NCBI RefSeq assembly: GCF_016481275.1
Contig: NZ_JAEMNW010000005.1
Coordinates: forward strand, 186,001 to 250,000
Reading direction: 5' to 3'
Length of the DNA stretch: 64,000 nt
From: Antrihabitans auranticaus
GTDB lineage: Bacteria; Actinomycetota; Actinomycetes; Mycobacteriales; Mycobacteriaceae
Positions 21,116 to 37,290 of this stretch are shown here, in pieces; position 1 is the stretch's first letter; each line of letters starts with the position of its first letter. The notes beneath the pieces were generated by a model, which ran no database searches, had not been told where the DNA came from, and saw only the letters and a list, made by a program, of their open reading frames with translations. Position numbers and translations under genes: made by a program.

Positions 21116-21343
21116 TCAGACGAGCCAGGTCTTCGGCCGGTAGTAGGACTCGTCGTCGTCCTGGGCGGTCTTTTCGACGGTCTGCGTCGGTGTCTTCTGC
21201 TCGGCACGCTGCCGGAATCGCTCCGCTATCTGCGCCACGGCTTCCGCGTTCCGGTTCCTGAGATCTTCCAGCTCGGTACGAATCCGGGCGGCCCGGGTGC
21301 GATGTTCCTCCCCCAGCCGGACTATCTCGTCTGCGTAGCTCAC
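21116..21343 (-). CDS. small charged, helical protein of the ESX-associated island
   Basis: Protein of 75 residues, almost entirely predicted helix with heptad-like charge pattern (residues 8-48), then an acidic stretch and a tyrosine-containing end (SYYRPKTWLV). No signal peptide or membrane helix. The ATG overlaps the stop of the 564-residue gene by four bases, so it is the last gene of the 24860-21116 minus-strand string. No family recognised. Small charged helical proteins beside type VII substrates can be partners or chaperones, but that is speculation here. Confidence 0.7.
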   Translation of the reverse strand: MSYADEIVRLGEEHRTRAARIRTELEDLRNRNAEAVAQIAERFRQRAEQKTPTQTVEKTAQDDDESYYRPKTWLV

Positions 21344-23034
21344 ATCGAACCAGCTTCCGCGACCTGCGCACCGGACTCTGCGGGAGGCCCGGAGTCGTCA
21401 GTCTGCGTCGATTGCCGGACCGCGCCTTCCTGCTCCGGCCGCACGGTGACCGGCGGCAGCACAGGTTGCGCCATCGGCTCCTGCAGCAGGTCGGCTGGAG
21501 CTTCGGGTTGCCACGACTCGACGGACTGATCCGGCTCGATCGCGATCGCCTCGTCCGCCGGTTCGGGCGGCACGCCTTCCTCGACGACGGGAGCGATCGG
21601 TTCCTCCTCCTGCCCGACCGGCGCGACGACTGGGACGCCGTTTTCGTCGATCGTCAACGTGAACTGCTTTGGTTCGCCGTCAGGTCCGGTCGTCGTCAGC
21701 ACGAGAGCACCGCCCGCCCCGGTCGTGCACCCGAGTTGCTGACCTGCCACGTCGAATACGGCCTCGGTCATATCGCCTTCGGGCACCGGCAGCGACACTT
21801 CGGCCCCATCGGTGCCGCCCTGGATCATCTGGACCGCGCCGTCGACGACACCGATTGCGACGCCCGCCACGAGTTCGGCCGCTTTCGCTGCGACGTCGGC
21901 AAGTCCGCCAAGTCCGCCAAGTCCGCCAAGTCCGTTGGACGTTTGCGCCGGCACGCTCACGTCGGCGGGTGTCCGGGTAGACAGTGCCTGCGGCGCGACA
22001 TCCACGCCGTGCGGGGAGGCGGGTACCGCGGAAGACAGTCCCGCACCGCTGCCCACAGAGCCGACCATGCCGCCGACCCCGGACCCGCCCGCGCTGCCGG
22101 ACAGGAGACTGCCGGTATCGACAAGTGCGCCACCGCCTGGCTCGACAGCGGCGCCGAGGATGGGTCGACCCGACTCGCTCGGCACACCTGCACCCGACGG
22201 CAGCGGAAACTGCTTGTCGCTCACGTCGCCGAGCGCTTCGATCAGCGTCGCGTACTGCGCCTTGATCGTGGTGTCGGTGCTGTCACACACGGCAAGAAAC
22301 GCATTGAGTTTGGTTTCGAAGTCGGTCCGAAAGATGAGTGCCCAGTACTCGCAGTCGCGTTCGACGATCGCCATGAACCGCTGGTCTCCAGCCAGCCGAT
22401 CTCCGACCGACGAGGTCTGCGGATAGTCGTCGTTGCGATACATGATCGCCGCAGCATCATTGAGCTCACCGTAAGACGGGGTGCCTTGCCAGACGTCGAT
22501 CAATTTGCCCAGTTCAGCACTCGATCTTCCTTGGATGAGCAGCCGCGAGTGAACTCCGGTGGAGTCCTGCTCGCGGAATCCGACGCACACCTCGGCCTTG
22601 ACCTCGACGGCGTCACGAAAAGCTTCCCGAGCAGCGCGCAACGCGTCGCGTGCAACCGACGCCTGCTCGTGCACCTCTTTGGCCTGCTGGATCTGCCCGT
22701 CGATCATCGCCCGGGCGTTGACGGAAGCAGCACCCGTCCACGCGCCGGGAATCGATCGAGCCTGCGTGGTCTGTTCGTCGATCTGCGATGTGGCTTCGGT
22801 GAGTACGGCGTCGACCGCATCGATGCAATCCTGCATACGCGCGAGGTCCATGCCCGATTGTTCGGACAACCGTGTCTCCAGCCCAGCGGACACGTCCCCG
22901 ACCGGTTCGAGCTTTTGATATAGCGCAGTGAACTCACGAAAGTAGGCGAGCCCGTACTTGCCGCGCTCGAGATATTGCGCGACCGAATACTTGTCCGTTA
23001 CTTCGGGCGGACCGCCGAGGGAAGCGCCGCTCAT
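21340..23034 (-). CDS. large WXG-like candidate type VII secreted protein with Gly-rich and acidic C-terminal regions
   Basis: Protein of 564 residues. The N-terminal 270 residues are helical and include a W-x-G turn (AWTGAASVNAR, about residue 98-108) flanked by long helices, as in WXG100/LXG-type substrates. A glycine-rich middle follows with LGG repeats (GLGGLGGLGGL, encoded by a 9-base tandem repeat). A short beta-type segment (FTLTIDENGVPVVAP) precedes an acidic, proline-rich C-terminus of about 100 residues. No signal peptide. It overlaps the genes on either side by four bases, and the gene before it encodes an EspC-like protein. I infer an ESX substrate or surface component; no enzyme domain was recognised. 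Confidence 0.7.
   Translation of the reverse strand: MSGASLGGPPEVTDKYSVAQYLERGKYGLAYFREFTALYQKLEPVGDVSAGLETRLSEQSGMDLARMQDCIDAVDAVLTEATSQIDEQTTQARSIPGAWTGAASVNARAMIDGQIQQAKEVHEQASVARDALRAAREAFRDAVEVKAEVCVGFREQDSTGVHSRLLIQGRSSAELGKLIDVWQGTPSYGELNDAAAIMYRNDDYPQTSSVGDRLAGDQRFMAIVERDCEYWALIFRTDFETKLNAFLAVCDSTDTTIKAQYATLIEALGDVSDKQFPLPSGAGVPSESGRPILGAAVEPGGGALVDTGSLLSGSAGGSGVGGMVGSVGSGAGLSSAVPASPHGVDVAPQALSTRTPADVSVPAQTSNGLGGLGGLGGLADVAAKAAELVAGVAIGVVDGAVQMIQGGTDGAEVSLPVPEGDMTEAVFDVAGQQLGCTTGAGGALVLTTTGPDGEPKQFTLTIDENGVPVVAPVGQEEEPIAPVVEEGVPPEPADEAIAIEPDQSVESWQPEAPADLLQEPMAQPVLPPVTVRPEQEGAVRQSTQTDDSGPPAESGAQVAEAGSM
21901..21936. repeat. 9-base tandem repeat, four units
   Basis: Three copies of AAGTCCGCC and a fourth ending in GTT. 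It lies inside the 564-residue gene and encodes the L-G-G repeats; slippage would change the linker length in frame. Confidence 0.85.
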
Positions 23035-23366
23035 CCCGGAATGCCCTGTCCGACACTCCGCAACGCCTGCGTCGTAGCTGCGTCGGTCGTCGCGTAAGAC
23101 ATCGCGTCACCGCCGAGTTGCTGCGCACTCGCGTTGGTGGCGGTTTGCCAATTCGTCAGCCACGCAAGGATATTGGCGAGCCCTTCGGCAACCTCGTCGC
23201 CCTGGTGAGAGTAGTTCGCACCGGCGTGCTGCGGCCCGAAGTCATTCTTCTGCAGTTCGGCGCCGGCAATAGCGACAGCCTGCGCAGACTTTTGCAACTC
23301 GGTTGCTATCCGAGCCAGCGCGTCGCGGTCGACGCTGATCTCTTCCGAACCGTTTTCACCAGCCAC
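23031..23366 (-). CDS. EspC/DUF2580-like type VII secretion-associated protein
   Basis: Protein of 111 residues. It shows the N-terminal V-D-x-x-A-L phrase (ISVDRDALARIATELQKSA) and the C-terminal pattern L-G-G-x-A-x2-Y-x2-T-D-A-A-T-T that characterise the EspC (Excreted virulence factor EspC-like) family. EspC members are small helical proteins secreted by or associated with ESX systems. The GTG at 23366 has a strong poly-G site (AAGGGGGG) in front. Stop and next start overlap by four bases, coupling it to the 564-residue protein, its likely partner. Confidence 0.8.
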   Translation of the reverse strand: MAGENGSEEISVDRDALARIATELQKSAQAVAIAGAELQKNDFGPQHAGANYSHQGDEVAEGLANILAWLTNWQTATNASAQQLGGDAMSYATTDAATTQALRSVGQGIPG

Positions 23367-23403
23367 CGTGCCCCCCTTCGCCGGTCGAATCTTCCTACAT
23401 GCC

Positions 23404-23799
23404 CTACGCGAGGATCGACCCGCGGCTACCGAAGTATTCGTCATCGTCATCGTCGTCGCCCGAGTCGGCATCGACTTCCGAACCGTCCACCGACAGCGTG
23501 CGTACGTACTCGTCGAGCAACGCGTCTGCCGAAGCGGCAAGGCGTGCGAATTCCTCGGGTGAGGTCTCGTTCAGGAGGTCGATGCCTGTTTGCTTCGACG
23601 TTTCGACGAGCGCGTCGAACGCGACTGTCGATACCGCTTCTCTCGGGTCCAGCGCACCATTCAGGATGGCATCCGCGAATTCCTTGGTCGCACAATCCGG
23701 AGCGAGTCGCGACAGTGCCTGTAGCGACATTTCGAGTTGGCGCTGCACACAGGTGTCCCCGCCTGCGAAGTCACCCCAGCCGGTTATCGACATTGTCAT
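23404..23799 (-). CDS. hypothetical acidic-tail protein of the ESX-associated island
   Basis: Protein of 131 residues, all-helical in appearance, with a low-complexity acidic tail (DSGDDDDDDEYFGSR). No signal peptide or membrane segment. The ATG at 23799 overlaps the stop of the preceding 354-residue gene by four bases; a second ATG two codons later is possible. No family recognised. Placement between two candidate ESX substrates suggests a chaperone or binding partner, which is inference only. Confidence 0.7.
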   Translation of the reverse strand: MTMSITGWGDFAGGDTCVQRQLEMSLQALSRLAPDCATKEFADAILNGALDPREAVSTVAFDALVETSKQTGIDLLNETSPEEFARLAASADALLDEYVRTLSVDGSEVDADSGDDDDDDEYFGSRGSILA

Positions 23800-24860
23800 A
23801 CCCCGGGATGGTCGTAGGACGAGGTGGGCAGGCCAGGCAGCGAAACGAACTCCGCGCCGCCCAGGAGTGCATACCCGCGGGCGAGTGCCTCGCGAACCAG
23901 CAGGAGCACCCTCCCGTACCAATCGACCACAGGAGCTGCGGTTGCCACCATCCGCGCAAACGTTGCAGCGAACGCCGCACCGAACACCGGCCCTGTCGGC
24001 ACAGGCGCCATCGACATGCTGAGCTGAACGGCCGCGATTATCGCCATGTCGAAGACGGATTGGAAGATGTCACCGATAAGGGTGCCGAACTCGGAGATCG
24101 CCGTCGCAAGCTGTTCGAGATTCCGGCCCATCTCGACGAGCGGGTCTTGCTGAGCAGCAACGGCATTCGCAAAACCCGCGAAGTACTCGCTCGCGCCGGT
24201 CGCGGCGTTTCCCTGCCATGTCTGGGTGCCGTCAGCTGCGGTACGGAGGATCACCGCAGCGAGTTCGGAGTTGTAGTCACCGAGCGTCGCGAGCGCCTTT
24301 CCGGCTTGTTGAATGTCTTCCCAGTTTCCGGCGATCCGCTCCGTCCAGCTCATAGGGTCTTCCCCCGTCGCGGCCTCCCACGCCTTGCAGACGAGCCACG
24401 TGGGCGACAGGAACTGCAAGCTGCCGATCGTGTTCCACATATCCGCCAACAGCGGTCGTAGTGCATCCGGCGCGGCCAATACAGCACTCGGAGCGCCGGT
24501 CACGGTGCGCACCGACGAGCGCACGGACCCGTCGGCATCCGGCTGACTCGCGCCAACGTATGTTCGATCCAACTCGCGCGCGACCTCCAGGTCCGTGTCC
24601 CGGTACATTCCGGCTGCCTTCTCCAGCTCGATCGACGACGCGTCCGCGATACGGCCGAGTTGCTCGTAGTTCACCTTCAGCCGATCGCGAATGTCGTGCA
24701 CACTGCGCGCCGTGTCCGTGAACAGGCCGCCGGCGGTCCCAGGCAGACTCAACCATTCGTCCAGGTATCGCAGCGCCGGACCGGTCTCCTCTTCGATACC
24801 CCGAACCGCTCCCGAGAACGCGAGTACATCCGCCGGAACGACGCGCAGCGATTCCCCCAT
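23796..24860 (-). CDS. EspC/WXG100-like candidate type VII secreted protein
   Basis: Protein of 354 residues. Residues 1-95 match the EspC-type layout (LRVVPADVLAFSGAVRGIEE, then EKAAGMYRDTD, the Y-x2-T-D signature). Residues about 165-265 form a second helical hairpin with a W-x-G turn (TWQGNAATGASEYF). A hydrophobic Ala/Met-rich C-terminal region follows (about 270-345). No signal peptide. The ATG at 24860 is preceded by AAGGGGGAAG. This two-module design resembles longer WXG100-type substrates of mycolata; no toxin or enzyme domain is visible. It is probably first gene of the string ending at 21116. Confidence 0.72.
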   Translation of the reverse strand: MGESLRVVPADVLAFSGAVRGIEEETGPALRYLDEWLSLPGTAGGLFTDTARSVHDIRDRLKVNYEQLGRIADASSIELEKAAGMYRDTDLEVARELDRTYVGASQPDADGSVRSSVRTVTGAPSAVLAAPDALRPLLADMWNTIGSLQFLSPTWLVCKAWEAATGEDPMSWTERIAGNWEDIQQAGKALATLGDYNSELAAVILRTAADGTQTWQGNAATGASEYFAGFANAVAAQQDPLVEMGRNLEQLATAISEFGTLIGDIFQSVFDMAIIAAVQLSMSMAPVPTGPVFGAAFAATFARMVATAAPVVDWYGRVLLLVREALARGYALLGGAEFVSLPGLPTSSYDHPGV

Positions 24861-24958
24861 CACTTCCCCCTTTGCAGACGCACTGGCACCCCTCGAGCCA
24901 GTGCTACAAGGTTTGACGCCACTTCGCCGGGATCGGTTCCGTCGTTCTGCGAGAAAAT

Positions 24959-26665
24959 TCAGTCGACCTGATCCTGGCGGGAATGCAGCTTCCGCATACC
25001 GAGCGCGGCAAGCTTGTCGGCACCGCTCGATTCGACACTCATCCCGCAGGCTCGCAGGAACACCTCCCCCGAACTGTCGAGCAGACACGTCACATGCTCG
25101 ACCTCCTTGGTCGGCGATGCGTTGCGCGCCGACAATCCGCGCCACACGAGCCGCCCCCTGGCGTGCACGTCGAATGCCGTCGTACCGACCGGACTCGTCG
25201 ACCCGACCTGACGTGGCGGACCTGGATCCGCACCGCTGGTCGGGACGGGCACGACGTAGCGAACGTCGTTCGCTTCACCGTTGGGACAGATCTGGAGCTG
25301 CTTGACGATGTCGTACTGGATGTCGTCGTGCGCGTCGGCGGCGGCGGAGACCACTCGGGTCTCGATCGCATCTCCGGGCCGATACTTCTCGGCGAGTCCT
25401 CGCCCGGTCGTCGGCGCGACGAACCTTCGCGCGGCCGACACGCGTGCCGCGCCTGCCTCGGCAGCGGTGAGCGGAATCGATCCGCAGGCCAGCGAGGTCA
25501 TTTCACCGCCCGTCGTCACCGATGCCGCGGTCGCCGGAATCATCCCGTCGATCGCGTCCTCGGGAAGCAGCAACGCGGTAACCACGCCCCTGGCCTCATC
25601 GTCCGTGAGTGCGACCGCTGTGCTCGACGTTCCCGAAAGCACCACCAGCGCGATGATGACGAGGAGCAGGACGACGGCCACCGCCGCCGCGACCTTCCAA
25701 CCGATACCCCGAGGCGGCGCGGCAACGTGCGGGCGCCGGATGACTTCGGTCGGCAGCTCGTCGTGCGGACGACGTTGGGCAACAGTGGGTCTCACGTCTG
25801 CCGGTGACGGTGCGCCGAACGTCCGCGGCGGCACGGGGGCAGCGATGACATCGGGATCCTCGATGACCAGCCGCACTGCGCCGAGAGCGATCGCGTGGAC
25901 GGGCTGTTCGGCGAGCTCGAGCCGACGGCCGAACTGGTTCTTGAAAGCGAGTCGCAGAACCTCGTTGTAGACCACGTTTCCTGCAAGGACCACCGCACCG
26001 GTATCTGCACCGATCGATCGCGCTGCGCCGAGAACGTCGAAGACCAGGCGGTCGGCGACGCGGGGGTCGCTTGCGGCGTCTGGCAGCATCGCCACTCCGA
26101 CCGATTCGGTCGGCGTGTTCTCATCGACGCCAACCGCGACGACGAGGACCGAACGCCCGTCGCAGTAGACGACGGTCGCACCATGCCCTGCGACGGCGCC
26201 CGCGCCGCGAACGTACCCGGCGAGGGCCACCGATTCCGGTATCGGCTCCACCGCGACGCCGAGACCGCCGACGAGAGCAGCGAAGCGCTCCACGGTCGCG
26301 TCGGGCCAGGCGTCGGGATAGGGCAACGCGAGAACATCGATCGGTCCACCGAGGTGGGCGGCGATCGCATCCAGGGCGTTGTGCAGCCGCGCGCGAAAGA
26401 CCGCTTGGGTCGGCCACGTCGCGCCCGCGACCACTATTTCGTTGTGGCCGACGATGTCTCGTACGTCGGCGATCGCCGTCCCGAGGTCGGTGCGACGCGG
26501 ATCGGCACGCCGCGTATGGAGTTGCCCCCTACGATCGGCGAGCAGCGCTGCCGGCGGCGTCGGGTCGCCTTCGATCGGCAAGAACACCGGGGCACGCGCA
26601 CCGTGCCCAGCCGCCACCGTCAGCACGTCCCACCCGAGGTGGACCGCCCCTACCCGCTCCGACAT
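24959..26665 (-). CDS. Hsp70/actin-like membrane protein with extracytoplasmic domain
   Basis: Protein of 568 residues. Residues 1-270 resemble a degenerate Hsp70 nucleotide-binding domain (VDVLALPYPDAWPDATVERF then PIPESVALAGY; VVYCDGRSVLVVAVG; GAVVLAGNVVYNEVLRLAF). A linker rich in Pro and Arg is followed by one membrane helix (about 325-347, AAAVAVVLLLVIIALVVLSG) and about 215 extracytoplasmic residues with paired cysteines, no recognised family. The layout parallels the Rv3446c-like protein at 37291 and the protein at 6567. The start has a G-rich site (GGGGGGAGGGG) right ahead. It is probably cotranscribed with the substrate genes 98 bases downstream. Role unknown; a sensor or assembly factor for type VII secretion is plausible. 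Confidence 0.72.
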   Translation of the reverse strand: MSERVGAVHLGWDVLTVAAGHGARAPVFLPIEGDPTPPAALLADRRGQLHTRRADPRRTDLGTAIADVRDIVGHNEIVVAGATWPTQAVFRARLHNALDAIAAHLGGPIDVLALPYPDAWPDATVERFAALVGGLGVAVEPIPESVALAGYVRGAGAVAGHGATVVYCDGRSVLVVAVGVDENTPTESVGVAMLPDAASDPRVADRLVFDVLGAARSIGADTGAVVLAGNVVYNEVLRLAFKNQFGRRLELAEQPVHAIALGAVRLVIEDPDVIAAPVPPRTFGAPSPADVRPTVAQRRPHDELPTEVIRRPHVAAPPRGIGWKVAAAVAVVLLLVIIALVVLSGTSSTAVALTDDEARGVVTALLLPEDAIDGMIPATAASVTTGGEMTSLACGSIPLTAAEAGAARVSAARRFVAPTTGRGLAEKYRPGDAIETRVVSAAADAHDDIQYDIVKQLQICPNGEANDVRYVVPVPTSGADPGPPRQVGSTSPVGTTAFDVHARGRLVWRGLSARNASPTKEVEHVTCLLDSSGEVFLRACGMSVESSGADKLAALGMRKLHSRQDQVD

Positions 26666-26694
26666 GTACCCCTCCCCCCGTTCGCACAGAATAT

Positions 26695-26720
26695 CCCGCT
26701 CCCGAGCGGGACCCTATAGT
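26695..26720 (+). promoter_or_regulatory. candidate promoter and inverted repeat between divergent genes
   Basis: CCCGCT (26695-26700) and AGCGGG (26705-26710) form an inverted repeat with a 4-base spacer, immediately followed by TATAGT (26715-26720), a good -10 box 39 bases ahead of the lipoprotein start. The repeat occupies the -35 area and could be an operator serving both directions. Confidence 0.4.
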
Positions 26721-26759
26721 TGGCTCGACCGTCCCCCCTGATCGGAATCGAGGCGCCCA

Positions 26760-27446
26760 GTGCACCGGATCACTCCGGCAGTGAGCACGCTCGTCGTCGC
26801 GGCGACGCTCGCCGGTTGCGCGGCGGATCCGGTTGCCGAACAACCTGTTTCGCAGGACTCCGACCGGTATCGCACGCAGCTGATCGACCAGCTCGACCTC
26901 CGATTACCCATGTTCGCGAACTGGGAGGTCACAGACGCCGAGCGACGACCTGATGCTGCGGCGAGGTACGAAGGCCTGTCTGCCGCACAGCCCGCGGCGT
27001 GTGGACTCGACGGCGCGGCGACGAAGGCCGCACATACCGCGACATACGGTGGCTCCGACTGGACCGGTGCACATGGCGTGGGACCGGAGGGCCAGCTGTT
27101 CGATGTGTCGATCCTGTTCGGCAACAAAGGAACTCGATCCGATGTCTCGTCGTTCGTCGAGAAGTGTGCGTCGACCGAATTCATGGTCGAGGGCGGCACC
27201 GCAACCGTCGAGGTCGCCGTTGCCCCAGAATTCGCTGACGACGCATTCGAAGACGTGTACGGCTACACGTCGAAGACGACCGAGCGGCGCGGCCAAGAGG
27301 TCGCTGCCCGGTCGTCGATACTCGTTGTGGGCAAGTCGAACTCACTCACGCTGGTGCTGACGTTCAGCAACTCCGGCGACCTACAGACTCACTACGCCGA
27401 AGCCGTCTGGGAAGCCGCTGCCCAGCGGCTCGAGCGCGCTCGCTGA
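26760..27446 (+). CDS. putative lipoprotein of unknown function
   Basis: Protein of 228 residues, GTG start, with signal peptide and lipobox LAGC (Cys at about 21). The mature domain contains two well-spaced cysteines (near residues 81 and 138) that could form a disulfide, and mixed alpha-beta character. No family recognised with confidence. It is divergent from the Hsp70-like gene and ends one base from the convergent FHA-ABC transporter, so it has its own promoter (TATAGT at 26715). Confidence 0.75.
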   Translation: MHRITPAVSTLVVAATLAGCAADPVAEQPVSQDSDRYRTQLIDQLDLRLPMFANWEVTDAERRPDAAARYEGLSAAQPAACGLDGAATKAAHTATYGGSDWTGAHGVGPEGQLFDVSILFGNKGTRSDVSSFVEKCASTEFMVEGGTATVEVAVAPEFADDAFEDVYGYTSKTTERRGQEVAARSSILVVGKSNSLTLVLTFSNSGDLQTHYAEAVWEAAAQRLERAR

Positions 27447-27447
27447 G

Positions 27448-29886
27448 CTAGTTCGACGACCGCGTCCGCAACCTGTTCAGCGTGAAGAACGCGAACACCG
27501 CACCGAGAACGACCAGCATCCACACATCGAGCAGCCATATCCCGGCGCTGTGCTCCCACAACGTGTCCGGCTGCGCTCGCAAGAACAGTTCCCGCAGATC
27601 GACAGTCGATGCGCCCGCCGCGTAGCCCCACCGCGACGGGAAGAGCCACGACAGTTGGGACAACACCGGCCGGCCGGTCACCTCGATGAGGCCGCCGCAC
27701 ATCACGAGCTGCGCCATGATTGTCACGACGAGAAGCGGCATCACCTGCTCGCTCGACTTCGCCAGCGCGGACAGCAGCAACCCGACCATGACGCACGAAC
27801 ACGTCGTGACGGCGATGCCGATCAGCAATTCGAGGCTTCCCGAAGGGAGCAGGGCACCAGCGCCAGGAGCTTTCTTGCCGACGAGCACGATCGCGACGAG
27901 CACGATCGATTGCAGAATTGCGGCGGCACAGAAGACCACGATCTTCGCGAACAGGTACGCCGACGGCAGCAGACCGACTGCCTTCTCCCGCTGATAAATC
28001 GGCCGTTCACCGATCAGATCACGCACCGACAGCGACGACCCCATGAAGCACGCCCCGAGCACGACGAGCACGAGCAGTTGCTGCGCCTCCGACGCCGCGT
28101 CGCACCGCTCGGGCGTTGCCACACTCGGATCGGGCTGCAACGGGCACGGCGGGAAGTCTGTGATCGGCGCGAAGCCCGCCTTTCCCGGCACTACCAGCGA
28201 CAGCACGCCGAGCAAGAAGGGCATTACGACGAGGAAGATCAAGTAGCCGCGGTCGGCGAGAATCAGCCTGACCTGTCTGCGCGCAACAGTGGAGATCTGC
28301 TTGCTCGTACTCGTGTGTGCCGGTTGGCCGGGCGGACCGTACCTCGGCGCGGGCGGCGGACCCGCGAGCGGGTGCCGCGCGCGGTACGCGGCGAAGACGC
28401 CGTCTGGATCGAGGGTGACCTTCGTGAAGATCTCCGCCCAGTCGGCGCTGCCGAGAGCGGAGCCGACGCCCTTCGGATGGCCGCAGTACGCGGTCTTGCC
28501 ACCGGGCGCGAGCAACAGCACCTGGTCGCACATGTCGAGGTGGGTCAGCGAGTGCGTCACGACCAGGACCACGCGGCCCGCGTCGGCCAGCTGCCGCAAC
28601 ATCACCATGACCTGCCGGTCCAGCGCCGGATCGAGTCCCGAGGTCGGCTCGTCGAGAATCAGCAACGACGGACTTGTGAGCAGTTCCAGCGCCACCGAAG
28701 CGCGCTTTCGCTGGCCACCTGACAGGCGGTCGACCCGCGTGTCGGCGTGTTCGGTGAGCGACAGCTCAGCGAGCACGCCGTCGATCACGCGCGCGCGGTC
28801 GTCGGCCGTGGTGTCAGGGGGCAGCCGCAGCTCAGCGGCGTACCGCAGGGCCTGCCGCACGGTGAGCTGGCGGTGCAGCACGTCGTCCTGCGGAACCATG
28901 CCGATTCGGCTTCGAACCACTTCGTACTCGGCGTGGAGGTTGCGGCCCTCGAAGTTCACGACGCCCATCGACGGGCGATTCACGCCGGCAATGATCTTCG
29001 CGAGCGTTGACTTCCCGGCGCCCGACGGTCCGATCATCGCCGTCAGCGAGCCCGGCGCAGCTGCCATCGACACGTCCACCAGCAACTGTTTATTGCCCTC
29101 GACCGTGAAGCCGAGGCCGTGCAGATTCAACCCGATCTCGGCGGTGCCCCGTTGCCGCTGCCGCAGAGTCCCCTCGGCAACGACGAAATCGACGTTGCCG
29201 ACCGTGACGATGTCACCTTCGCGCAGCACCGATCGCTGGGTTCGGGCACCGTTGACGAACGTGCCGTTCACGCTGCCGACGTCTTCGATGACGAGGCCCT
29301 CACGGCTCGGCACCAACCTGGCATGGCGCCGCGACGCGAGGACATCGTTGACGACTATCGAATTCTCGGACGTGCGACCGATCGTGAGACCACCCGGTGG
29401 GACACCGGTCGGCATGCTCACCCGCGCCTCGGACGAGCGCTGCCGGACCGGCGGCAGGGAGGCAGTGCTCGCGTGCACCGTCATATTGATGCTTTGCTCG
29501 CGCGACGGCCCGGGATCCGGGCGCCGCGGTGCGTTCGCCGGATGCGGGATCAGCATCAGGAGGGCGCCGGTCGCCGGATCGCCGAGCCGGACCTGCAGTG
29601 GGCGATCGACCCGGATCGGCTGGCCGATTCGTTGCATGTCTACGAACACCCCGTTGGTGCTGCCCCGGTCGGTGAGCATCCAGCCGCCCTGCCACGACAG
29701 CACCGCATGTACGCGCGAGACGAGCGGATTGTCGACGAAGAGACCGACGTCAGGCGCGCGTCCGATCGTCACGGGCTTGCGCGAGTCGAATACCCGGTCC
29801 ACACCGTCGACGCGGACCGTGATGGTCTGGACACCGGGAGCATTCATATCTGCGGATACTATTCGATGCGGTCGCGGAGTCTGCAT
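27448..29886 (-). CDS. ABC exporter with two FHA domains, Rv1747-like
   Basis: Single-chain ABC half-transporter of about 812 residues. Two forkhead-associated (phosphothreonine-binding) domains come first (about 20-95 and 150-235; GRAPDVGLFVDNPLVSRVHA and GRTSENSIVVND...SRRHARLV). The ATPase follows (about 245-470: Walker A GPSGAGKST, signature LSGGQRKR, Walker B LLILDEPTSGLDP), and then an ABC2-type membrane domain with six helices (about 530-805). M. tuberculosis Rv1747 has this architecture and is controlled by the kinase PknF through its FHA domains. A Ser/Thr kinase gene lies 144 bases upstream here. Start uncertain: ATG 29886 has an AAGG in front, ATG 29847 is the alternative. Substrate unknown. 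Confidence 0.9.
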   Translation of the reverse strand: MQTPRPHRIVSADMNAPGVQTITVRVDGVDRVFDSRKPVTIGRAPDVGLFVDNPLVSRVHAVLSWQGGWMLTDRGSTNGVFVDMQRIGQPIRVDRPLQVRLGDPATGALLMLIPHPANAPRRPDPGPSREQSINMTVHASTASLPPVRQRSSEARVSMPTGVPPGGLTIGRTSENSIVVNDVLASRRHARLVPSREGLVIEDVGSVNGTFVNGARTQRSVLREGDIVTVGNVDFVVAEGTLRQRQRGTAEIGLNLHGLGFTVEGNKQLLVDVSMAAAPGSLTAMIGPSGAGKSTLAKIIAGVNRPSMGVVNFEGRNLHAEYEVVRSRIGMVPQDDVLHRQLTVRQALRYAAELRLPPDTTADDRARVIDGVLAELSLTEHADTRVDRLSGGQRKRASVALELLTSPSLLILDEPTSGLDPALDRQVMVMLRQLADAGRVVLVVTHSLTHLDMCDQVLLLAPGGKTAYCGHPKGVGSALGSADWAEIFTKVTLDPDGVFAAYRARHPLAGPPPAPRYGPPGQPAHTSTSKQISTVARRQVRLILADRGYLIFLVVMPFLLGVLSLVVPGKAGFAPITDFPPCPLQPDPSVATPERCDAASEAQQLLVLVVLGACFMGSSLSVRDLIGERPIYQREKAVGLLPSAYLFAKIVVFCAAAILQSIVLVAIVLVGKKAPGAGALLPSGSLELLIGIAVTTCSCVMVGLLLSALAKSSEQVMPLLVVTIMAQLVMCGGLIEVTGRPVLSQLSWLFPSRWGYAAGASTVDLRELFLRAQPDTLWEHSAGIWLLDVWMLVVLGAVFAFFTLNRLRTRSSN

Positions 29887-30029
29887 TACTGGCAAACCTT
29901 CGAAAAAGACTGCCGCGAGTGGTGGCGTTCGTACCGCCTACGCTCCTCACCCAGCGCATGAATTGTCAAGTAGTTCACTGCTTTCCCCTCCCCCAAGGGT
30001 TGTATCGACCGAACGGGCGGTCGCGGCGC

Positions 30030-30848
30030 TCAGCTCGACCGAAGATCGGAGATCCGGTCGGCAACGGCTGCCGCTGTCGCCGGTCGATTCTCGACCGGCG
30101 CAATGCACGCATCGACGAGCGATCGCTCGGCCTTGCTGAGCGCTCCCGACGCCCGTGCCCTGCCGGAAACGACGGCACGGATGGCGAGCATAGGCTGCCC
30201 GACCGGCAGCTCGCCGTACAGCCCCTCACCGGTGAGCGCCCGATTGATAGTGGCGCCGAGTGCCCAGATATCGCTTGCGCGAGAGGGCATTTCGCCCTGT
30301 AGCAGGTCGGGGTCGAGATACTCGACCGAGGTTGCGGGCGCAAAACTCGTCACGCTGCTCTGCGAGCTGAGCACTCGAACGAGGCCGAGATCGGACAACT
30401 TGCCGCCCGTGTCGGAGACCATGATGTTTGCGGGTTTCACGTCGCCGTGCACCATGCCGTGCTCGTGCAGTTCGTGCACGGCGCGCGCTGCATCCTCGAG
30501 CGCGCGCAGGACATCAGCGCGCGAGAGCTTGCGCGTCGGAGCCGCGAGCGACCCCAGCGGAAAGTACTCCATGGCGTAGAGAAAGTTGTCTTCGAGCACC
30601 GCGTCGTAGATTTGGACCAGCCGCGGCGACCGGACCGCCGCGAACGCACGCAGTTCGCGGACACCGCGCCGGTAGTCGTCTTTGCTGATGTGATCGCTGA
30701 AGACCTTCAACGCGACGCGGTCGGTCGAGAGCCCCAGCCGCGCAGGGGGTTCGGCGAGGTAGAACCGGCCATTGTTACCTTCGCCCAGGACACCCAGAAT
30801 CCGGTAGTCCGCGATGGCCGCTGGGATGGGTTTCGCTTCGACGGGCAT
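30030..30848 (-). CDS. soluble Ser/Thr protein kinase
   Basis: Protein of 272 residues consisting of one Hanks-type kinase domain with no membrane helix or sensor domain. The Gly-rich loop is GEGNNG (22-27), the ATP lysine Lys48 in VALKVF, the catalytic loop HGDVKPAN (Asp136), and the metal motif is DLG (153-155) instead of DFG. The DIWALG helix is present. All catalytic residues remain, so activity is likely. Neighbours with FHA domains (the ABC exporter downstream, the zinc-ribbon protein at 33032) are natural substrates or readers. Divergent from the proton antiporter 83 bases away. Confidence 0.88.
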   Translation of the reverse strand: MPVEAKPIPAAIADYRILGVLGEGNNGRFYLAEPPARLGLSTDRVALKVFSDHISKDDYRRGVRELRAFAAVRSPRLVQIYDAVLEDNFLYAMEYFPLGSLAAPTRKLSRADVLRALEDAARAVHELHEHGMVHGDVKPANIMVSDTGGKLSDLGLVRVLSSQSSVTSFAPATSVEYLDPDLLQGEMPSRASDIWALGATINRALTGEGLYGELPVGQPMLAIRAVVSGRARASGALSKAERSLVDACIAPVENRPATAAAVADRISDLRSS

Positions 30849-30931
30849 GTGGACCTCTGCTTCTCGGGGCGATCGGCTGTTTGTCGTGCGCTATGTGGAG
30901 TTGGCGTACCAATCATGGTGAACTCTTGGGC

Positions 30932-33028
30932 GTGGGACACATCTTCGCGTTCGTTCTTCTCGACATCGCCGTGATCATCGTCGTTGCCCGGCTGTTCGGC
31001 CGGATAGCGCGATACTTCCGCCAACCCGCGGTGGTCGGCGAAATCGTTGCCGGAATCGCACTCGGACCAAGTCTCCTCGGACTGATCTCCGTGCAAATCG
31101 GCGACCACATGCGACCGCTGAATGAACACCTGTTTCCCGTCGACGTCGTTCCCTATCTCAAGATACTTGCCCAGCTGGGCTTGGTCCTCTTCATGTTCAT
31201 CGTGGGTCTCGAATTGGATGTCGCTCTGATTCGCGGACGGGAACGCCGAGCCGGGACGATCTCGCTCGCGTCGATCGTCCTGCCGTTCGCCCTGGGCGCA
31301 GCGGCCACGCTGATCCTGCATCCGTTGCACGACGAGGTCGACGGAAAGCCGGTCACCTTGCTCGCGCTGATGCTGTTCATGGGCGTCGCTATGTCGATTA
31401 CGGCGTTTCCCGTACTTGCCCGAATATTGGCCGAACGAAAGATGAATCGGACAACCGTCGGCGTTCTCGCCCTCGCCGCGGCAGCAGTGGACGACATCCT
31501 GGCGTGGACCCTGCTCGCGTTCGTGATCGCAGTCGTGGCAGGCGACAGCCCGTGGGCAGTCCTGCGGATCGTCGCACTCTCGGCCCTGTTCGCCGCCGTC
31601 ATGTTCGGCGTCGTCAAACCACAACTCGCACGGCTGCTCGACTGGTACAAGCGCGCGGGACGCGTCACACCCGACATGCTGGCAATCATTCTCGTAGGAA
31701 TCCTGTTGTCCGCGTTGATTACCGAACGGATCGGCATCCACGAGATCTTCGGCGCCTTCCTCTTCGGTGCGATCATGCCGCGCAAGGGTGCCCAGGAGTT
31801 CACCCGGGAAATTCTCGACCGGCTGGAGCAGATGAGCGTCCTGCTCCTGCTGCCGATCTTCTTCGTCGTCGCGGGATTCGGCGTCAATCTCCGCGCGTTC
31901 AAGGACCCCGGCCTGCTGTGGCAACTTGCGCTGATCCTGGCTGCCGCGATCGTCGGCAAGTTCGTCGGTGCGTTCGTGGGCGCACGGATGCAGCGCATGC
32001 CGGTGCAGCAGAGTGCAGCGATTGCCGTCTTGATGAACACCCGCGGCCTTACCGAGCTCGTCATCCTTCTGGTCGGCAAGCAACTCGGGGTGCTCGATAC
32101 CGCGATGTTCACGATGATGGTCGTGATGGCCCTCGTCACCACCGCGATCACGGAGCCGCTGCTGCGAATCGTGTACCCCGACAAAGCCGTCCAGCGCGAC
32201 ATCGACGCGACGACCAAGGCAGCGCTCGGATCCGAGCAAACCTATCGCGCGCTCGTCGTCGTCGACGGCCCGCCCGGCGTCACGACCGATCGCATGCTCC
32301 GACTTGCCGCCGCGGCCGCAGCGGGGCGGGAACCCCGCGAGATTCTGCTTTCGCGGTTCCTCGTCACCGAAGACAGCGACCTCCCGGAAATCGGCGCCGG
32401 CGCGTTGCCCGACCTCGCCGGCATGGCCGAGGCCGTCGAGGCGCTCGAAGCGTTCGCCGACCGAACCGAGATCACCACCGTTCCGATCAGAGTCCTCTGC
32501 CGCTTCAGTTCGGACCCGGGCGGTGACCTCGTCCGCCAGATTGCCGCCTCGGGCGCGGAAGTCGTACTGGTCAGTGAGGATTGGGTGCGCCGCAACCCGG
32601 AGGGCTTCGAACGACTCGACGCCGTCGTCGTGCTCATCGTGCCGGCAGAGCTTCCCGACGTGTGGCTGGCCGCGGGAACCGAGGCCGCCCTCGCGCTGTC
32701 GGCCGGCAAGGTCCTCGTGCGCGACGATGGCAGCAGCGACGGCACCCGCGGAGTCCTCGTCGCGGCCCGCGCAGCGGCGTACGGTCGAATTCCGCTGAGC
32801 GCGATCATTTCCGGTTCCGACGGAAAGACTCGGCGCAAACTCAACTACTCGCTGGAACCGCTGCACACGTCCGGTACGGCATTCGAGATCGATTCGGTTG
32901 TGCCGACGGGAGATTCGATCGGTGTGGTGGCACGAATCGTGGATCGTACCGGTGGCTCAGGCCTCAACTTGCGCGATGAGATAGCCGCCATCGTCGACGG
33001 CCTGGACGCGGCCAGCGGATCGCGCTGA
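30932..33028 (+). CDS. CPA2 cation:proton antiporter with C-terminal USP-like domain
   Basis: Membrane protein of 698 residues. About 12 helices cover residues 1-410 and include the transport motif A-V-D-D-I (Asp187-Asp188) of electrogenic CPA2 exchangers and the sequence MNTRGLTELVIL typical of the family. The C-terminal 260 residues are cytoplasmic and resemble a universal-stress-protein module (ALVVVDGPPG, then LVREDGSSDGT-like loops). GTG start at 30932; TTG two codons earlier is possible. It would exchange Na+ or K+ for protons. Divergent from the Ser/Thr kinase and convergent (3-base gap) with the FHA protein, which suggests shared regulation. Confidence 0.88.
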   Translation: MGHIFAFVLLDIAVIIVVARLFGRIARYFRQPAVVGEIVAGIALGPSLLGLISVQIGDHMRPLNEHLFPVDVVPYLKILAQLGLVLFMFIVGLELDVALIRGRERRAGTISLASIVLPFALGAAATLILHPLHDEVDGKPVTLLALMLFMGVAMSITAFPVLARILAERKMNRTTVGVLALAAAAVDDILAWTLLAFVIAVVAGDSPWAVLRIVALSALFAAVMFGVVKPQLARLLDWYKRAGRVTPDMLAIILVGILLSALITERIGIHEIFGAFLFGAIMPRKGAQEFTREILDRLEQMSVLLLLPIFFVVAGFGVNLRAFKDPGLLWQLALILAAAIVGKFVGAFVGARMQRMPVQQSAAIAVLMNTRGLTELVILLVGKQLGVLDTAMFTMMVVMALVTTAITEPLLRIVYPDKAVQRDIDATTKAALGSEQTYRALVVVDGPPGVTTDRMLRLAAAAAAGREPREILLSRFLVTEDSDLPEIGAGALPDLAGMAEAVEALEAFADRTEITTVPIRVLCRFSSDPGGDLVRQIAASGAEVVLVSEDWVRRNPEGFERLDAVVVLIVPAELPDVWLAAGTEAALALSAGKVLVRDDGSSDGTRGVLVAARAAAYGRIPLSAIISGSDGKTRRKLNYSLEPLHTSGTAFEIDSVVPTGDSIGVVARIVDRTGGSGLNLRDEIAAIVDGLDAASGSR

Positions 33029-33031
33029 CGC

Positions 33032-34321
33032 CTACAGGTGCGCGTGCGGTGAATCGAAGGTGATGGTCCTGCCGCCGATGGAAATTTCGGCGCCGGGGGC
33101 CAGCATGAAAGGCTGACGCGGCTGCAAGGTCCGCCAGTCGCGGTAGCCGGGCATCCTGACATGCGTGCCGTTGGTGGACCCGAGGTCGACGACTGCCACA
33201 TCCCACTCGATGAGGCGAATCTCTGCATGCGCGCGTGACATGCCACCCGCACGGTCCGCCAGCCGGATCGGAGTCAATCCCGCGCGCACCGAGTCGGACG
33301 TTTCCGGCTCGCGGCCGATGACGCAATCGCCGTGCAGGATGAACGTCTGGCCGTCGTCGACGACAAGGAAGCCCAACGGGGGGCGCTGACCTTCGGAGAT
33401 GATCTGGGTTTCGTTCATCCGCAGACCGCAGAGCCTGCAGAAGGCGACGCGCGGGTCGTTCAGATGCCCGCGGGCGCACTTGATGCCACGAACGCGAATG
33501 TCGCCTGCGAGTTTGCTCGGAACCTCCGTGTCCACGGTCGGTTTGAGGTCCGCAATCGAATTCGCGATCGGCAACGGTTTACGTGCCGGTGGCGGCTTTT
33601 CGTCGAGTGTGAACTGATGAAAGTTCTCGGGCTCGACGAGCACGACATCCTTCGCCGGGGGCGGGACGAATTCTTCGCTGAAGACATCCGCCTTTCGCGT
33701 TTGCTCCTCGACCGGTGCCCTCTTGCGATCCGGTTTCTTCAGCTCCGGAGTTTTCTCGACCGGCGCCTTCTTTTCCTGCGCTGTAGCAGCGGCCGGCGCC
33801 GCAGGGGCAGTTCCGAGCCAGACCATGGCACCGGCACCCTTGGCGACACCTTCGACGAGCGATCCGATGCCGCGCTGAGACAACAACTTCGGCGCGCCTC
33901 GACCTTCGACGACGAAGAGACCCGCTGCACCCGTTGTGTCGACGATCCGGTCGACGGAAAATGCGGCATCTCGGCCGCGGATCGGTTCCGGGCGCCCCGA
34001 CTCGTTCCCGATGAGCGCAGTCACGTCACCGTGCAGAAAAACCGCAAGCCCGGACTCGACGGGCGACAGCACACCGAATTCGACATTGTCGTCCTGTTCG
34101 CCGACCCACCGGGCGGCCAACCGGGCGAACGCACGACCGAACAGATCGCCGTCGATATCGAAGGCTTGCGTGATGAGCTCGTTCAGTTCCAGCCAGGTCT
34201 TGGCGGCCCGCGAATCGGTCGTCAGGTCCGATGAATCGCGATGCGGGACAACAACGACGGCACCTGCCCTGGTCGCGACAAGGTGACCTCCTGCAACCAC
34301 CTCGACCTGGCGTGGTGTCAC
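33032..34321 (-). CDS. FHA-domain protein with zinc-ribbon-like cysteines
   Basis: Protein of 429 residues, cytoplasmic. Residues 1-190 form an uncharacterised N-terminal domain; residues 190-270 are Lys/Pro/Glu-rich. A C-A-R-G-H ... C-x2-C pattern at about 281-296 looks like a small metal-binding ribbon. The C-terminus (about 325-425) is an FHA domain with VIGREPETSDSV, SRAHAEI and STNGTHV, which contact phosphothreonine. The GTG at 34321 overlaps the stop of the upstream membrane gene (GTGA). Third gene of the 36343-33032 operon. It may read phosphorylation by the kinase at 30030. Confidence 0.8.
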   Translation of the reverse strand: MTPRQVEVVAGGHLVATRAGAVVVVPHRDSSDLTTDSRAAKTWLELNELITQAFDIDGDLFGRAFARLAARWVGEQDDNVEFGVLSPVESGLAVFLHGDVTALIGNESGRPEPIRGRDAAFSVDRIVDTTGAAGLFVVEGRGAPKLLSQRGIGSLVEGVAKGAGAMVWLGTAPAAPAAATAQEKKAPVEKTPELKKPDRKRAPVEEQTRKADVFSEEFVPPPAKDVVLVEPENFHQFTLDEKPPPARKPLPIANSIADLKPTVDTEVPSKLAGDIRVRGIKCARGHLNDPRVAFCRLCGLRMNETQIISEGQRPPLGFLVVDDGQTFILHGDCVIGREPETSDSVRAGLTPIRLADRAGGMSRAHAEIRLIEWDVAVVDLGSTNGTHVRMPGYRDWRTLQPRQPFMLAPGAEISIGGRTITFDSPHAHL

Positions 34322-34761
34322 ATGAACCGCCCTCCCGCAAAGCGCCAGCGGTGGAACACCAACCGCATTGGTCCGTTGACGATTAGCCAGAATACCAACC
34401 ACGTGATGATGAACTGGATCAAGAATGCGGTGAGTGTCGGCCGAATGTCCTCGTGTACGACGATCGTCGTGTGCCGCACCAGCAGCCAGACGACTATCCC
34501 TTCGTTGACGATCGTCAGCAACCCGAACAGGGTCGGCCAGTCCTTCTCCCAGCGAAATTGCTGCAAGCCGTGATAGACGAACTCCCACAGCACCCCGACC
34601 AGCACGGTGGTCAGAAGGACCGTCAGCGTGACGCGGTAGCTCTGCGCAATCGAGAGATCACCGGTGGGCAAGAACGGCGTGATGACCAGCGCGACAAAGA
34701 AACCGATCAGGCCCAGCCCGAGGATTCGGGTCTGTAATCGCCCGTTCAGCGTTGGCAGCAT
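34318..34761 (-). CDS. four-helix integral membrane protein
   Basis: Protein of 147 residues with four predicted membrane helices (about 13-33, 45-65, 76-96, 108-130) and short loops. No family recognised. It starts 7 bases after the oxidoreductase stop and overlaps the FHA protein start by four bases, so the three are one operon. Confidence 0.75.
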   Translation of the reverse strand: MLPTLNGRLQTRILGLGLIGFFVALVITPFLPTGDLSIAQSYRVTLTVLLTTVLVGVLWEFVYHGLQQFRWEKDWPTLFGLLTIVNEGIVVWLLVRHTTIVVHEDIRPTLTAFLIQFIITWLVFWLIVNGPMRLVFHRWRFAGGRFM

Positions 34762-34768
34762 CAGCCCC

Positions 34769-36343
34769 TCAGATCCTCTTGTTTCTTACCCACGACCACC
34801 ATTGACTCGTCGATCGCAATGGTCCCATACGGCGCACGAAGCCGTTCGCGGCAAGATCGTCGGCAATCTCCTGGGCGGCGATCTGCAGGCCGAGGAACGT
34901 ATCGACGCCAGGAAAATACCCGCCGAGCGTCGCCGTTCCCGACGCATAGATTCGCCCGGTGCCACTGCGCGTGCCGATGAGTTCGAAGGTGCGATCGACG
35001 TCGAGGCGGCCGACCGGGTTGCGCCCCGCCCCGGTGTGATCGAGGAGGTCGGCGAGTAGGCGATGCTCGCGGATGTCTGCTTCCAGGCCGGTGCAGTCGA
35101 CGACGTAGTCGCTCGGAATATCGAACGGCTGAGTGGGCGGCGGATACGGGAGCGGTGCAGTGGGGTCGGGCACGATCGTCGAGATCACACCCTGACCGTT
35201 CGGTGCGGGCCGCAGATTCTTCGCGGTGCCGGCCATCACCTGATACCAGCCCTCGGCGCGACCGCGGCGCAACTGCTCCTGCCAGTTTTTGCGGACCGGG
35301 GTGTTCGTGCCGCCCATTTCTTTGTAGGCAGCTGCCCGCTCCTGCCCCTCGAGCTTTCGCACCTTTGCCTTGAGCTGACCGCCCCACACCGACTTCGGAT
35401 AGTTGAAGCCCTGATACGCCCAACCATCGCCGCCTTTGCGGCGCTTGAAAACACTTTCGCCGTGCGAGCCGGCCACGTAGGTGCGGAACAGATGCAGGAT
35501 CCGGGTTTGCAGACCTAACCGGTCACGGTCATCGATCAGCCGCTGGAGCACGCGGGACGCGACGATTCCACTGCCCCGGATCATCACCGTTCCCGGACGC
35601 CGTTGCAGCGATTGGTACATGTGCTCGTGCGGTTCGTAGGCGTTGACCACCTTCGAAGGGTCCTGATACTTCTCGCGGTACTCCTGGAGGTCGTCGAGCA
35701 TTTTCAGACCCGGGTACCCGACGGCAACGTGGACATAGGTACTGCGGAAGGCGACCCGTTTGGTCGGTGCCGTTCCTGGTGCCGGGGTGAGAATCGTGAA
35801 GTACCCGCCACCAGCGCGACGGCGGATCATCCGCACAGCGCCGTTACGCAACGACTCCGCGTATCCGACGCGGTGGTACTCCTTCTCCATCGACTCGAAG
35901 GCATGGCCTGCCCGCGGCGTGTAGAAATCGGCGAAGACCGGTTCGACGAGAACCTGCCACAGGGGCGCGACGAATCCGCCGAGCGATTTGGCGGAGAACG
36001 CTTCTCGCACCGCGTAGGACGGGAACCCCCAGATGTTGTCCGGCGTCGACGCGGAATCAGAGCGCAACCGCTCCTGGCGCGGGATCTGCGAAACACGCGT
36101 CAGATACTCGTAACTCGACCACGGCACCGTCTGCGGCCCGAGAACGGCCATCGCCGAAGCCGGCACGCCGTAGATGCGGAGCGTATCGAAGGTGACGAAC
36201 GAACCGATGCCACTACCGACCGTCACGAACGGCACGTCGACGATCGGGATTCCGGCCTGGCCGACCATGTCGTCGGTCCAGACATCGGTGTCGATCAACG
36301 CCTGGTTGAGATCGCCTCGCATTTTCGCGATGCTACCCGGCAC
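34769..36343 (-). CDS. putative FAD/NAD(P)-binding oxidoreductase
   Basis: Protein of 524 residues with an N-terminal dinucleotide-binding turn (VTVGSGIGSF), a second turn in the middle (VMIRGSGIVASRVLQRL) and a late VVDCTGLEADIR plus RIYASGTATLGGYFPG stretch, an arrangement seen in two-dinucleotide flavoproteins. The first motif is placed unusually far in (about residue 41) and lacks the full GxGxxG charge pattern, so the cofactor is uncertain. GTG start at 36343; an ATG seven codons in is the alternative; no strong ribosome site for either. Upstream gene of an operon with a membrane protein and an FHA protein. Substrate unknown. Confidence 0.65.
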   Translation of the reverse strand: MPGSIAKMRGDLNQALIDTDVWTDDMVGQAGIPIVDVPFVTVGSGIGSFVTFDTLRIYGVPASAMAVLGPQTVPWSSYEYLTRVSQIPRQERLRSDSASTPDNIWGFPSYAVREAFSAKSLGGFVAPLWQVLVEPVFADFYTPRAGHAFESMEKEYHRVGYAESLRNGAVRMIRRRAGGGYFTILTPAPGTAPTKRVAFRSTYVHVAVGYPGLKMLDDLQEYREKYQDPSKVVNAYEPHEHMYQSLQRRPGTVMIRGSGIVASRVLQRLIDDRDRLGLQTRILHLFRTYVAGSHGESVFKRRKGGDGWAYQGFNYPKSVWGGQLKAKVRKLEGQERAAAYKEMGGTNTPVRKNWQEQLRRGRAEGWYQVMAGTAKNLRPAPNGQGVISTIVPDPTAPLPYPPPTQPFDIPSDYVVDCTGLEADIREHRLLADLLDHTGAGRNPVGRLDVDRTFELIGTRSGTGRIYASGTATLGGYFPGVDTFLGLQIAAQEIADDLAANGFVRRMGPLRSTSQWWSWVRNKRI

Positions 36344-36462: not shown

Positions 36463-36768
36463 TCAGCCGAGGTTCAGCCACGACGTGGCGTTGCGGTCCT
36501 CGGTCGTCTGCATGTCCGCGGTGCCGTCACGAACGACACGGGCGATCGTGGCCAGAACGGTGTTCAACTCCATGCGCGCCTTGTCCCAGTCGGCCTGCAC
36601 CTGGTCATAGGCGATCGCCGCGTTCTCACTGGTCCAACTCGCACGAAGCGTATTCACGTGCCCCCGAAGCTCAGTCTGGGTGTCGTCCAAGACCTTTGAG
36701 GTGCGATCGATGGACTCCGCTAGCGCGTGCAGCTCGGGAAACTTGTATGTTGTCTGTCCTGATGCCAT
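36463..36768 (-). CDS. esxT: WXG100 protein, EsxT-like
   Basis: Protein of 101 residues with the helix-turn-helix of ESAT-6-type secreted proteins. The turn reads S-W-T-S-E-N-A, that is W-x-S in place of W-x-G, as the EsxT branch also lacks the glycine. The C-terminal helix carries an R/D-rich end. AGGAG precedes the ATG. It forms the presumed heterodimer with the EsxU-like protein encoded 68 bases upstream, and the order EccC - Rv3446c-like - EsxU - EsxT equals M. tuberculosis ESX-4. Confidence 0.88.
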   Translation of the reverse strand: MASGQTTYKFPELHALAESIDRTSKVLDDTQTELRGHVNTLRASWTSENAAIAYDQVQADWDKARMELNTVLATIARVVRDGTADMQTTEDRNATSWLNLG

Positions 36769-37151: not shown

Positions 37152-37290
37152 CGTGACTCCTGTTCCAGTGCCTCGGTGTGGCCGCCCCCCAGAGGAATGC
37201 GTCACATCACCCCTACATTCGATTGGACGCCGAAGGAGCCCAACCGGTTCCACCAATCCGGAAGTTTCTCGAGAACTCTTTTGCGGCTGA

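Follow-up and report, generated by a model that had tools for sequence, protein, structure and literature searches.

Three separately distributed gene units between rplM and esxT, beside the ESX-4 locus of Antrihabitans auranticaus

Introduction

ESX-4 is a type VII secretion system (T7SS) of the T7SSa kind, with EccB, EccC, EccD, EccE, a MycP-type protease, and an Rv3446c-family gene beside esxT and esxU. In Mycobacterium tuberculosis, esxT presumably follows rplM directly. Here we describe the rplM-esxT interval of Antrihabitans auranticaus, which lies in a stretch of 64,000 nucleotides (contig C20:186001-250000 of the 6.5-Mb genome); this whole stretch is called the window. The window carries the same ESX-4 genes, but two extra cassettes of EspC-like, WXG100-type, and partner proteins adjoin ESX-4 here, whereas the second cassette is found near glmM in 14 of 20 relatives compared, and the first has no ESX genes detected in the 14 loci compared.

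Other described systems share parts with the interval. The Rv1747/PknF system of M. tuberculosis includes a double-FHA ABC-2 exporter, the architecture of the exporter encoded here. PknF is membrane-bound, whereas the kinase encoded near the ABC gene in the window is soluble. Rv1747 may export phosphatidylinositol mannoside (PIM) lipids, and in M. tuberculosis a phosphorylated stress protein is reported to bind its FHA domain FHA I (PMC5549992).

Small genes beside a type VII substrate also accompany the T7SSb toxin EsaD, whose partners EsxB, EsxC, and EsxD are export factors; in Staphylococcus such small partner proteins are described as type VII export factors (PMC10653861). That system belongs to a different phylum, and the partner role of the small genes in the window is a putative one. 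Kinase, phosphatase, or FHA parts occur in T7SSd, T7SSe, and T7SSf, much as kinase and FHA genes lie near the T7SS here, but the T7 ATPase of T7SSd and T7SSe bears FHA domains (PMC11217815) and the EccC of the window gave no FHA match. The subtypes with kinases and FHA proteins come mostly from Bacillota, with T7SSd in Actinomycetota (PMC11217815). Species that lack mycolic acids are reported to show insertions into ESX-4 and rearrangements of it, and some Nocardia are reported to have an ESX-4EVOL cluster (PMC4791881).

Results and Discussion

The rplM-esxT interval

An initial annotation, made from the letters of the DNA, had listed 13 genes in this interval and had read them tentatively as a phospho-regulated secretion module linked to ESX-4. 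All 13 are confirmed to lie there, and the borders of the interval are confirmed by PF00572 and PF06013 matches. Taken together, the genes do not appear to have evolved as one unit, because three units among them are separately distributed: the candidate type VII cassettes A-E (unit 1), hsp with the double-FHA ABC exporter (unit 2), and flav, mem4, fhaz, anti, and kin (unit 3). The kinase/FHA/antiporter/flavoprotein set and cassette A-B both occur independently of ESX-4, the very finding that the annotation had named as contradicting it, and a phospho-signal to ESX-4 is supported by no result of the present analysis. We favour, with a probability of about 0.7, a mosaic of the three units at an insertion-tolerant junction beside ESX-4, with the roles proposed below.

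The genes, called from G+C frame plots and homology, are as follows.

20499..20942, minus strand: rplM, left border (PF00572)
21116..21343, minus: E, 75-residue partner of D with the tail DDDESYYRPKTWLV, like the tail in the gene after D of relatives
21340..23034, minus: D, 564 residues, WXG100 domain near the N-terminus (PF06013) and a long Gly/Pro-rich tail
23031..23366, minus: C, 111 residues, EspC-like partner (PF10824, weak, E 0.15), 4-bp overlap with D
23404..23799, minus: B, 131 residues, partner of A with the acidic tail DDDDDDEYFGSRGSILA; B-like genes follow A-like genes elsewhere
23796..24860, minus: A, 354 residues, EspC-like part joined to a WXG100-type part (PF10824 and PF06013, just below the cut-offs)
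24959..26665, minus: hsp, Hsp70-related by pairwise match to a PF00012 protein, one predicted membrane segment
26760..27446, plus: lipoprotein with a visible LAGC lipobox, convergent with the ABC gene
27448..29895, minus: double-FHA ABC-2 exporter of Rv1747 type (two PF00498, PF00005, PF01061)
30030..30848, minus: kin, soluble Ser/Thr kinase (PF00069), K/D/D motifs intact in the alignment
30923..33028, plus: anti, cation/proton antiporter (PF00999); an alternative start of the open reading frame is at 30881
33032..34318, minus: fhaz, FHA domain (PF00498) and zinc-type motif; start inferred from the end of mem4
34318..34761, minus: mem4, membrane protein with four hydrophobic segments
34769..36343, minus: flav, flavoprotein-like, without known family
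36463..36768, minus: esxT-like WXG100 gene, right border (PF06013)

Strand switches divide the interval into several transcription units, and same-genus genomes carry differing subsets of its genes. Among the titles and abstract openings retrieved by literature searches, none names unit 1 or unit 3 as a system, which does not imply absence from print.

Unit 3 away from ESX-4

Flav was found in 10 of the 161 genomes of the family sample and in 9 of the 296 genomes of the phylum sample, with the A. auranticaus genome counted in both. The mem4 profile matches exactly those nine phylum genomes; the probability of this would be 2e-17 for independent genomes, but these genomes are related and not independent. 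In each of the 17 contexts compared, mem4 is next to flav, and both kin and fhaz are present in 15 of them. These contexts comprise the own genome, G015, A. stalagmiti YC3-6 (G042, in two pieces), G019 (two contigs), Nonomuraea, and 12 other genomes, and they leave out G116 and G140, two of the ten family genomes with flav. Outside Antrihabitans, no ESX-4 core genes were detected in the unit 3 contexts, which span 4-25 kb and come from other family genera (L142-L147) and distant relatives (L134-L141). In six family genomes (G006, G038, G103, G116, G128, and G140) the contig with flav carries neither rplM nor the Rv3446c gene. Within Antrihabitans, A. cavernicola C1-24 (G061) has fhaz and lacks flav. 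No viral carriage of flav was confirmed in the viral contig collection.

The kinase is a protein of 272 residues with no membrane segment, and in the window its catalytic Lys, HxD Asp, and DLG Asp are all present. The HxD Asp is kept in 6 of the 14 aligned copies, the window included, and is replaced by N, H, or E in the other eight; the copy of L135 also misses the catalytic Lys and the DLG Asp. A copy without the catalytic Asp is present in genus g9. The FHA pocket of fhaz, written as G-R ... S-R-x-H ... N-G, is found in 11 of 15 sequences by our pattern, again including the window, and four do not fit it. The zinc-type motif C-x(3)-H...CxxC of the window protein occurs in 6 of the 15.

In the initial annotation flav was named a flavoprotein-like enzyme, and this label was not confirmed: no Pfam match was better than E 0.07, and with a set of 16 sequences PDB matches were at E 1.1 or worse. 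The kinase, antiporter, FHA/zinc, and four-helix readings for the other genes held, as did those of the double-FHA ABC exporter and the lipoprotein in the middle of the interval. KefC/KefF likewise combines an antiporter with an associated redox protein, but flav matches no Pfam family, and so no KefF-type domain was detected.

Unit 2 and rplM

Loci with hsp and the ABC gene were taken as the best 80 of 124 from the named genome collection, with several strains of some species included; flank counts depend on contig ends. At most 10 kb upstream was covered, and at least 9 kb in 73 loci. The ABC gene lies directly upstream of hsp in 80 of 80 loci, and rplM lies downstream in 73, the remaining seven being cut by contig ends. 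Within the covered 10 kb or less upstream, the 80 loci gave no match for esxT, esxU, eccB, eccC, or eccD.

In the family sample, hsp was matched in 18 of 161 genomes, 15 strongly (including G014, where only the tail is matched) and three weakly. It lies within 4.1 kb of rplM in 14 of 14 genomes; in the fifteenth, G014, no rplM was found. Seven of these 14 genomes have the Rv3446c gene no more than 30 kb away, G153 on the other strand. In the other seven it is 54 kb off (G042), on another contig (three genomes), millions of bases away (G081), or not found (two genomes). The ABC/hsp pair thus tracks rplM more closely than ESX-4.

The Hsp70-like label given to hsp derives from a distant similarity: a single pairwise comparison matched residues 82-137 to a PF00012 protein (L022) with E 2e-6, but hsp itself has no Pfam match at E 5, PF00012 included, no NCBIfam match, and no convincing PDB match. 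A plain Rv3446c-family (TIGR03931) paralogue was also considered and rejected, for there was no NCBIfam match and hhalign gave 2.5% probability and E 0.019 at similar positions.

The exporter has the two FHA domains, ABC ATPase, and ABC-2 membrane domain of the Rv1747 type. In the ABC tree the rplM-linked proteins of Antrihabitans and Nocardia (genus g22) group together with one long-branch intruder (L180), whereas the second copy of the own genome, on contig 19, groups with genera g10, g21, and g23. The deep fork is weak, with 67/89 support and one origin in 27% of bootstrap trees. The lipoprotein has no Pfam match and, among the 80 loci, is seen only in A. stalagmiti and A. cavernicola. An antiphage defence role was dismissed, as the PADLOC matches of the kinase and the ABC protein look generic (kinase, ATPase).

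Unit 1, two tandem cassettes

Genes A to E are separated by -4, 37, -4, and -4 bp, and these 4-bp overlaps with a single 37-bp gap suggest one operon. They form two tandem cassettes of the order EspC-like, WXG100-type, and small partner with an acidic/aromatic tail; the first two parts are fused in A and separate in C and D. B and E gave no family match, and both end in an acidic and aromatic tail while differing elsewhere.

The profile matches behind the reading of these genes as candidate type VII substrates lie near the curated cut-offs (PF06013, 27.3 bits; PF10824, 23.5 bits). A gives 21.4 bits with PF10824 over its first hundred residues and 25.1 and 26.3 bits with PF06013 further on. D gives 27.8 bits with PF06013 in the genome scan and 24 bits on the open reading frame. 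C is weakly EspC-like. A relative of the first half of A in the Nocardia genome G048 exceeds the PF10824 cut-off with 31.4 bits.

A is matched in 25 of 161 family genomes and in none of the three other Antrihabitans genomes. In many relatives the EspC-like and the WXG100-type part each match a stretch or gene of their own, side by side, and in L213 (G007) they lie in one frame as in the window. Fourteen A-B loci of 8-9 kb each (L202-L215) were fetched, with no ESX genes detected in them. B-like genes are directly downstream of A-like genes in these loci. The downstream gene ends in or near an acidic stretch in 12 of the 14, eight of which have a Y/F-Y/F pair in the tail as judged by eye; in L212 and L214 it has no acidic tail stretch.

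The M. tuberculosis counterparts of C and D, in the second cassette, are Rv3440c/Rv3439c. Of 20 genomes fetched, 14 gave a C or D profile match at most about 3.3 kb downstream of glmM, and the C profile detects relatives that are paired there with D. No such match lies between glmM and glmS in the window, and therefore the operon appears to have moved across rpsI-rplM. A tail of the form [acidic]-Y/F-Y-x-R-x-S/T-W-L closes the product of the gene after D in 33 of the 36 Nocardia and Antrihabitans loci that reach past D, and an E-type tail is also present in locus L165 of genus g27. A strict DNA pattern for the YY..WL tail picked out gene E alone in A. auranticaus and gave no match in the three remaining genomes of the genus, a search that looser tails would escape.

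In two loci (L077:18968-19702 and L104:19001-19693), a second open reading frame, of 231-245 residues on the minus strand near glmS, has the same EYYRRKSWL tail, which may point to a larger family of partners with such tails.

The own genome has a single EccB, and ESX-4 is the only T7SS detected in it. Four of its five WXG100 matches fall within the window. For these two reasons A-E are plausible type VII cargo of ESX-4. The fifth WXG100 match (G000:C18:568752-568961) is on another contig, away from ESX-4.

A junction open to other cargo

The distance from rplM to the Rv3446c gene was tabulated for the 110 family genomes with an Rv3446c-family match. In 95 the two genes are linked on the same strand at less than 100 kb; in the remaining 15 they are on other contigs, far away, or in opposite orientation, or rplM was not listed. 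Of these 95 genomes, 82 have a gap of 5 kb or less, one has 7.8 kb, and 12 exceed 9 kb, so that the long interval of the window is unusual. The gaps above 9 kb are spread over five genera, namely the own genus, Nocardia, g16, g19, and g30. In G045 (g19) the Rv3446c gene lies beyond eccC, and its gap of 10.8 kb therefore overstates the rplM-esxT interval.

The junction looks insertion-tolerant, because other genera carry other cargo there. G016 has condensation-domain and glycosyltransferase genes, and G045 has, among others, a haem-oxygenase-like iron enzyme. In G124 of genus g30 (L122, C1:2176001-2196000), eccB, eccC, and eccD genes lie within the rplM/Rv3446c interval and represent either a second T7SS or a rearranged ESX-4. 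The 56-kb interval of A. stalagmiti includes a second T7SS with EccA, EccB, EccC, EccD, and an S8 protease. This second system sits between the antiporter and fhaz (L106, L150; G042 C12:500001-540000).

The other cargo in G016, G045, and g30 also agrees with a chance pile-up at a permissive site, with neighbours that are functionally unlinked. We consider that a slim prospect, since overlaps and gene order are conserved within the units and flav and mem4 strictly co-occur.

In the genome G015, of the same genus, the genes enclosed by rplM and esxT include ABC, kin, anti, fhaz, mem4, and flav. No hsp, A, or lipoprotein match was found in that interval, and C-D is kept beside glmM instead. A putative zinc peptidase (PF04228) adjoins the ABC gene in G015 (L105:6027-7514) and, with a weak match, in Nocardia cyriacigeorgica (L111:8313-9872); none was seen in the window. 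Three consecutive DUF7373 proteins stand between fhaz and esxT in N. cyriacigeorgica (L111:11435-15270).

Marks of a recent insertion were sought and set aside, as the window contains no tRNA and its G+C content is 0.63-0.69 throughout. Plasmid carriage was likewise discarded, for the sole match in the plasmid collection is an 11.85-Mb Nonomuraea record.

The neighbouring ESX-4 genes

All ESX-4 core genes, EccE included, are present beside the interval.

36837..37304, minus strand: esxU-like WXG100 gene, probable start near 37151
37291..38643, minus: Rv3446c family (TIGR03931)
38625..42641, minus: EccC of ESX-4 (PF01580)
42835..44319, plus: EccD (PF19053, PF08817)
44319..45746, plus: MycP-type S8 protease (PF00082)
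45683..47164, minus: EccB (PF05108)
47182..48972, plus: EccE (PF11203)

No FHA match was found in the EccC of the window, unlike the FHA-bearing T7 ATPase of T7SSd and T7SSe.

In one integrated ESX-4 module, the kinase would phosphorylate substrates or ESX parts, FHA proteins would recognize the phosphothreonine, and lipid or ion support would come from the ABC exporter and the antiporter. The adjacency of all the genes in the window, the presence of ESX-4 as the only T7SS detected, and the intact FHA pocket and kinase motifs agree with it, and several other subtypes of T7SS are described as having kinases and FHA proteins (PMC11217815). The same kinase, however, has its catalytic Asp replaced in 8 of the 14 aligned copies, unit 3 showed no ESX-4 core gene in the contexts compared outside Antrihabitans, and EccC has no FHA match. 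Together with the several transcription units and the differing subsets in same-genus genomes, these results make an integrated module quite improbable.

Points against three separate units

Several observations weigh against the division proposed here. For unit 1, no C or D was found near glmM in 5 of the 20 genomes and D is 6.8 kb off in one more, and C is barely recognizable as EspC. For unit 2, an Rv3446c-like match stands some 8 kb upstream of hsp, on the other strand, in 8 of the 80 loci, and hsp is all that separates esxT from rplM in G031, an arrangement that speaks for an old tie between hsp and ESX-4. For unit 3, two of the 17 contexts (G375 and Nonomuraea) have flav-mem4 but none of kin, fhaz, and anti. 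The antiporter is seen in 11 of 17; of the six that lack it, two are short contigs. Moreover, fhaz is upstream of ABC-hsp in 73 of the 80 loci; six of the rest begin too near hsp, and A. stalagmiti has fhaz elsewhere. The other unit 3 genes are found in these 80 loci as follows: flav in none, the antiporter in one, and this kinase in one. It is thus likely that fhaz and the ABC exporter are linked, and with fhaz so placed a phospho-signal to the exporter is plausible.

The eight opposite-strand matches are all in Nocardia loci (L061, L064, L066, L072, L076, L088, L099, and L100; near 1.5-1.9 kb), with no other ESX genes in the stretch covered.

The position of fhaz raises the question of whether units 2 and 3 derive from one ancestral envelope-stress system (kinase, FHA adaptor, ABC exporter, antiporter) of the Antrihabitans/Nocardia ancestor, with only A-E and hsp belonging to ESX-4. 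Besides the 73 loci, G015 has the ABC gene together with kin, anti, fhaz, mem4, and flav, and Rv1747 is in an operon with the kinase gene pknF (PMC3908365). The ABC gene of the 80 loci is, however, almost always without flav, this kinase, or the antiporter. The unit 3 contexts outside Antrihabitans show only weak generic ABC matches (59 and 66 bits in L140, 17 bits in L139). We consider a common ancestral system less likely than the mosaic.

Proposed roles of the three units

With the interval read as a mosaic, the following roles are suggested. In unit 1, EspC-like and WXG100-type proteins may pair as a helical export pair, joined in A and separate as C and D, and the small partner with its acidic, aromatic C-terminal tail may escort or target the pair to ESX-4. 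Unit 2 would be an envelope pair of Nocardia and Antrihabitans at rplM, made of an Rv1747-type lipid or glycolipid exporter, possibly gated by phosphothreonine binding, and an Hsp70-related membrane partner. Unit 3 would be a separate signalling module. Its cytosolic flav, putatively dinucleotide-binding and docked on mem4, could sense the redox state, and the kinase or pseudokinase with the phosphothreonine-reading FHA adaptor could relay the signal to the cation/proton antiporter.

More tentatively, flav-mem4-fhaz-kin(-anti) may constitute an undescribed actinobacterial module, in which a new family of redox proteins on a four-helix partner signals to an antiporter through an FHA adaptor and a kinase turned pseudokinase in several lineages. 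Separately, and with the same reserve, the acidic/aromatic tail of the third partner may be a cassette docking tag for EccC.

What had been claimed as a single system thereby becomes three units, each open to test. How ESX-4 might choose its cargo can be approached through the partner with its tail and through the EspC/WXG fusion that nature provides. The flav-mem4-kinase module, in which flav and mem4 have no family name yet strictly co-occur in the sample, is a good target in the search for a new route of redox or ion signalling in actinobacteria.

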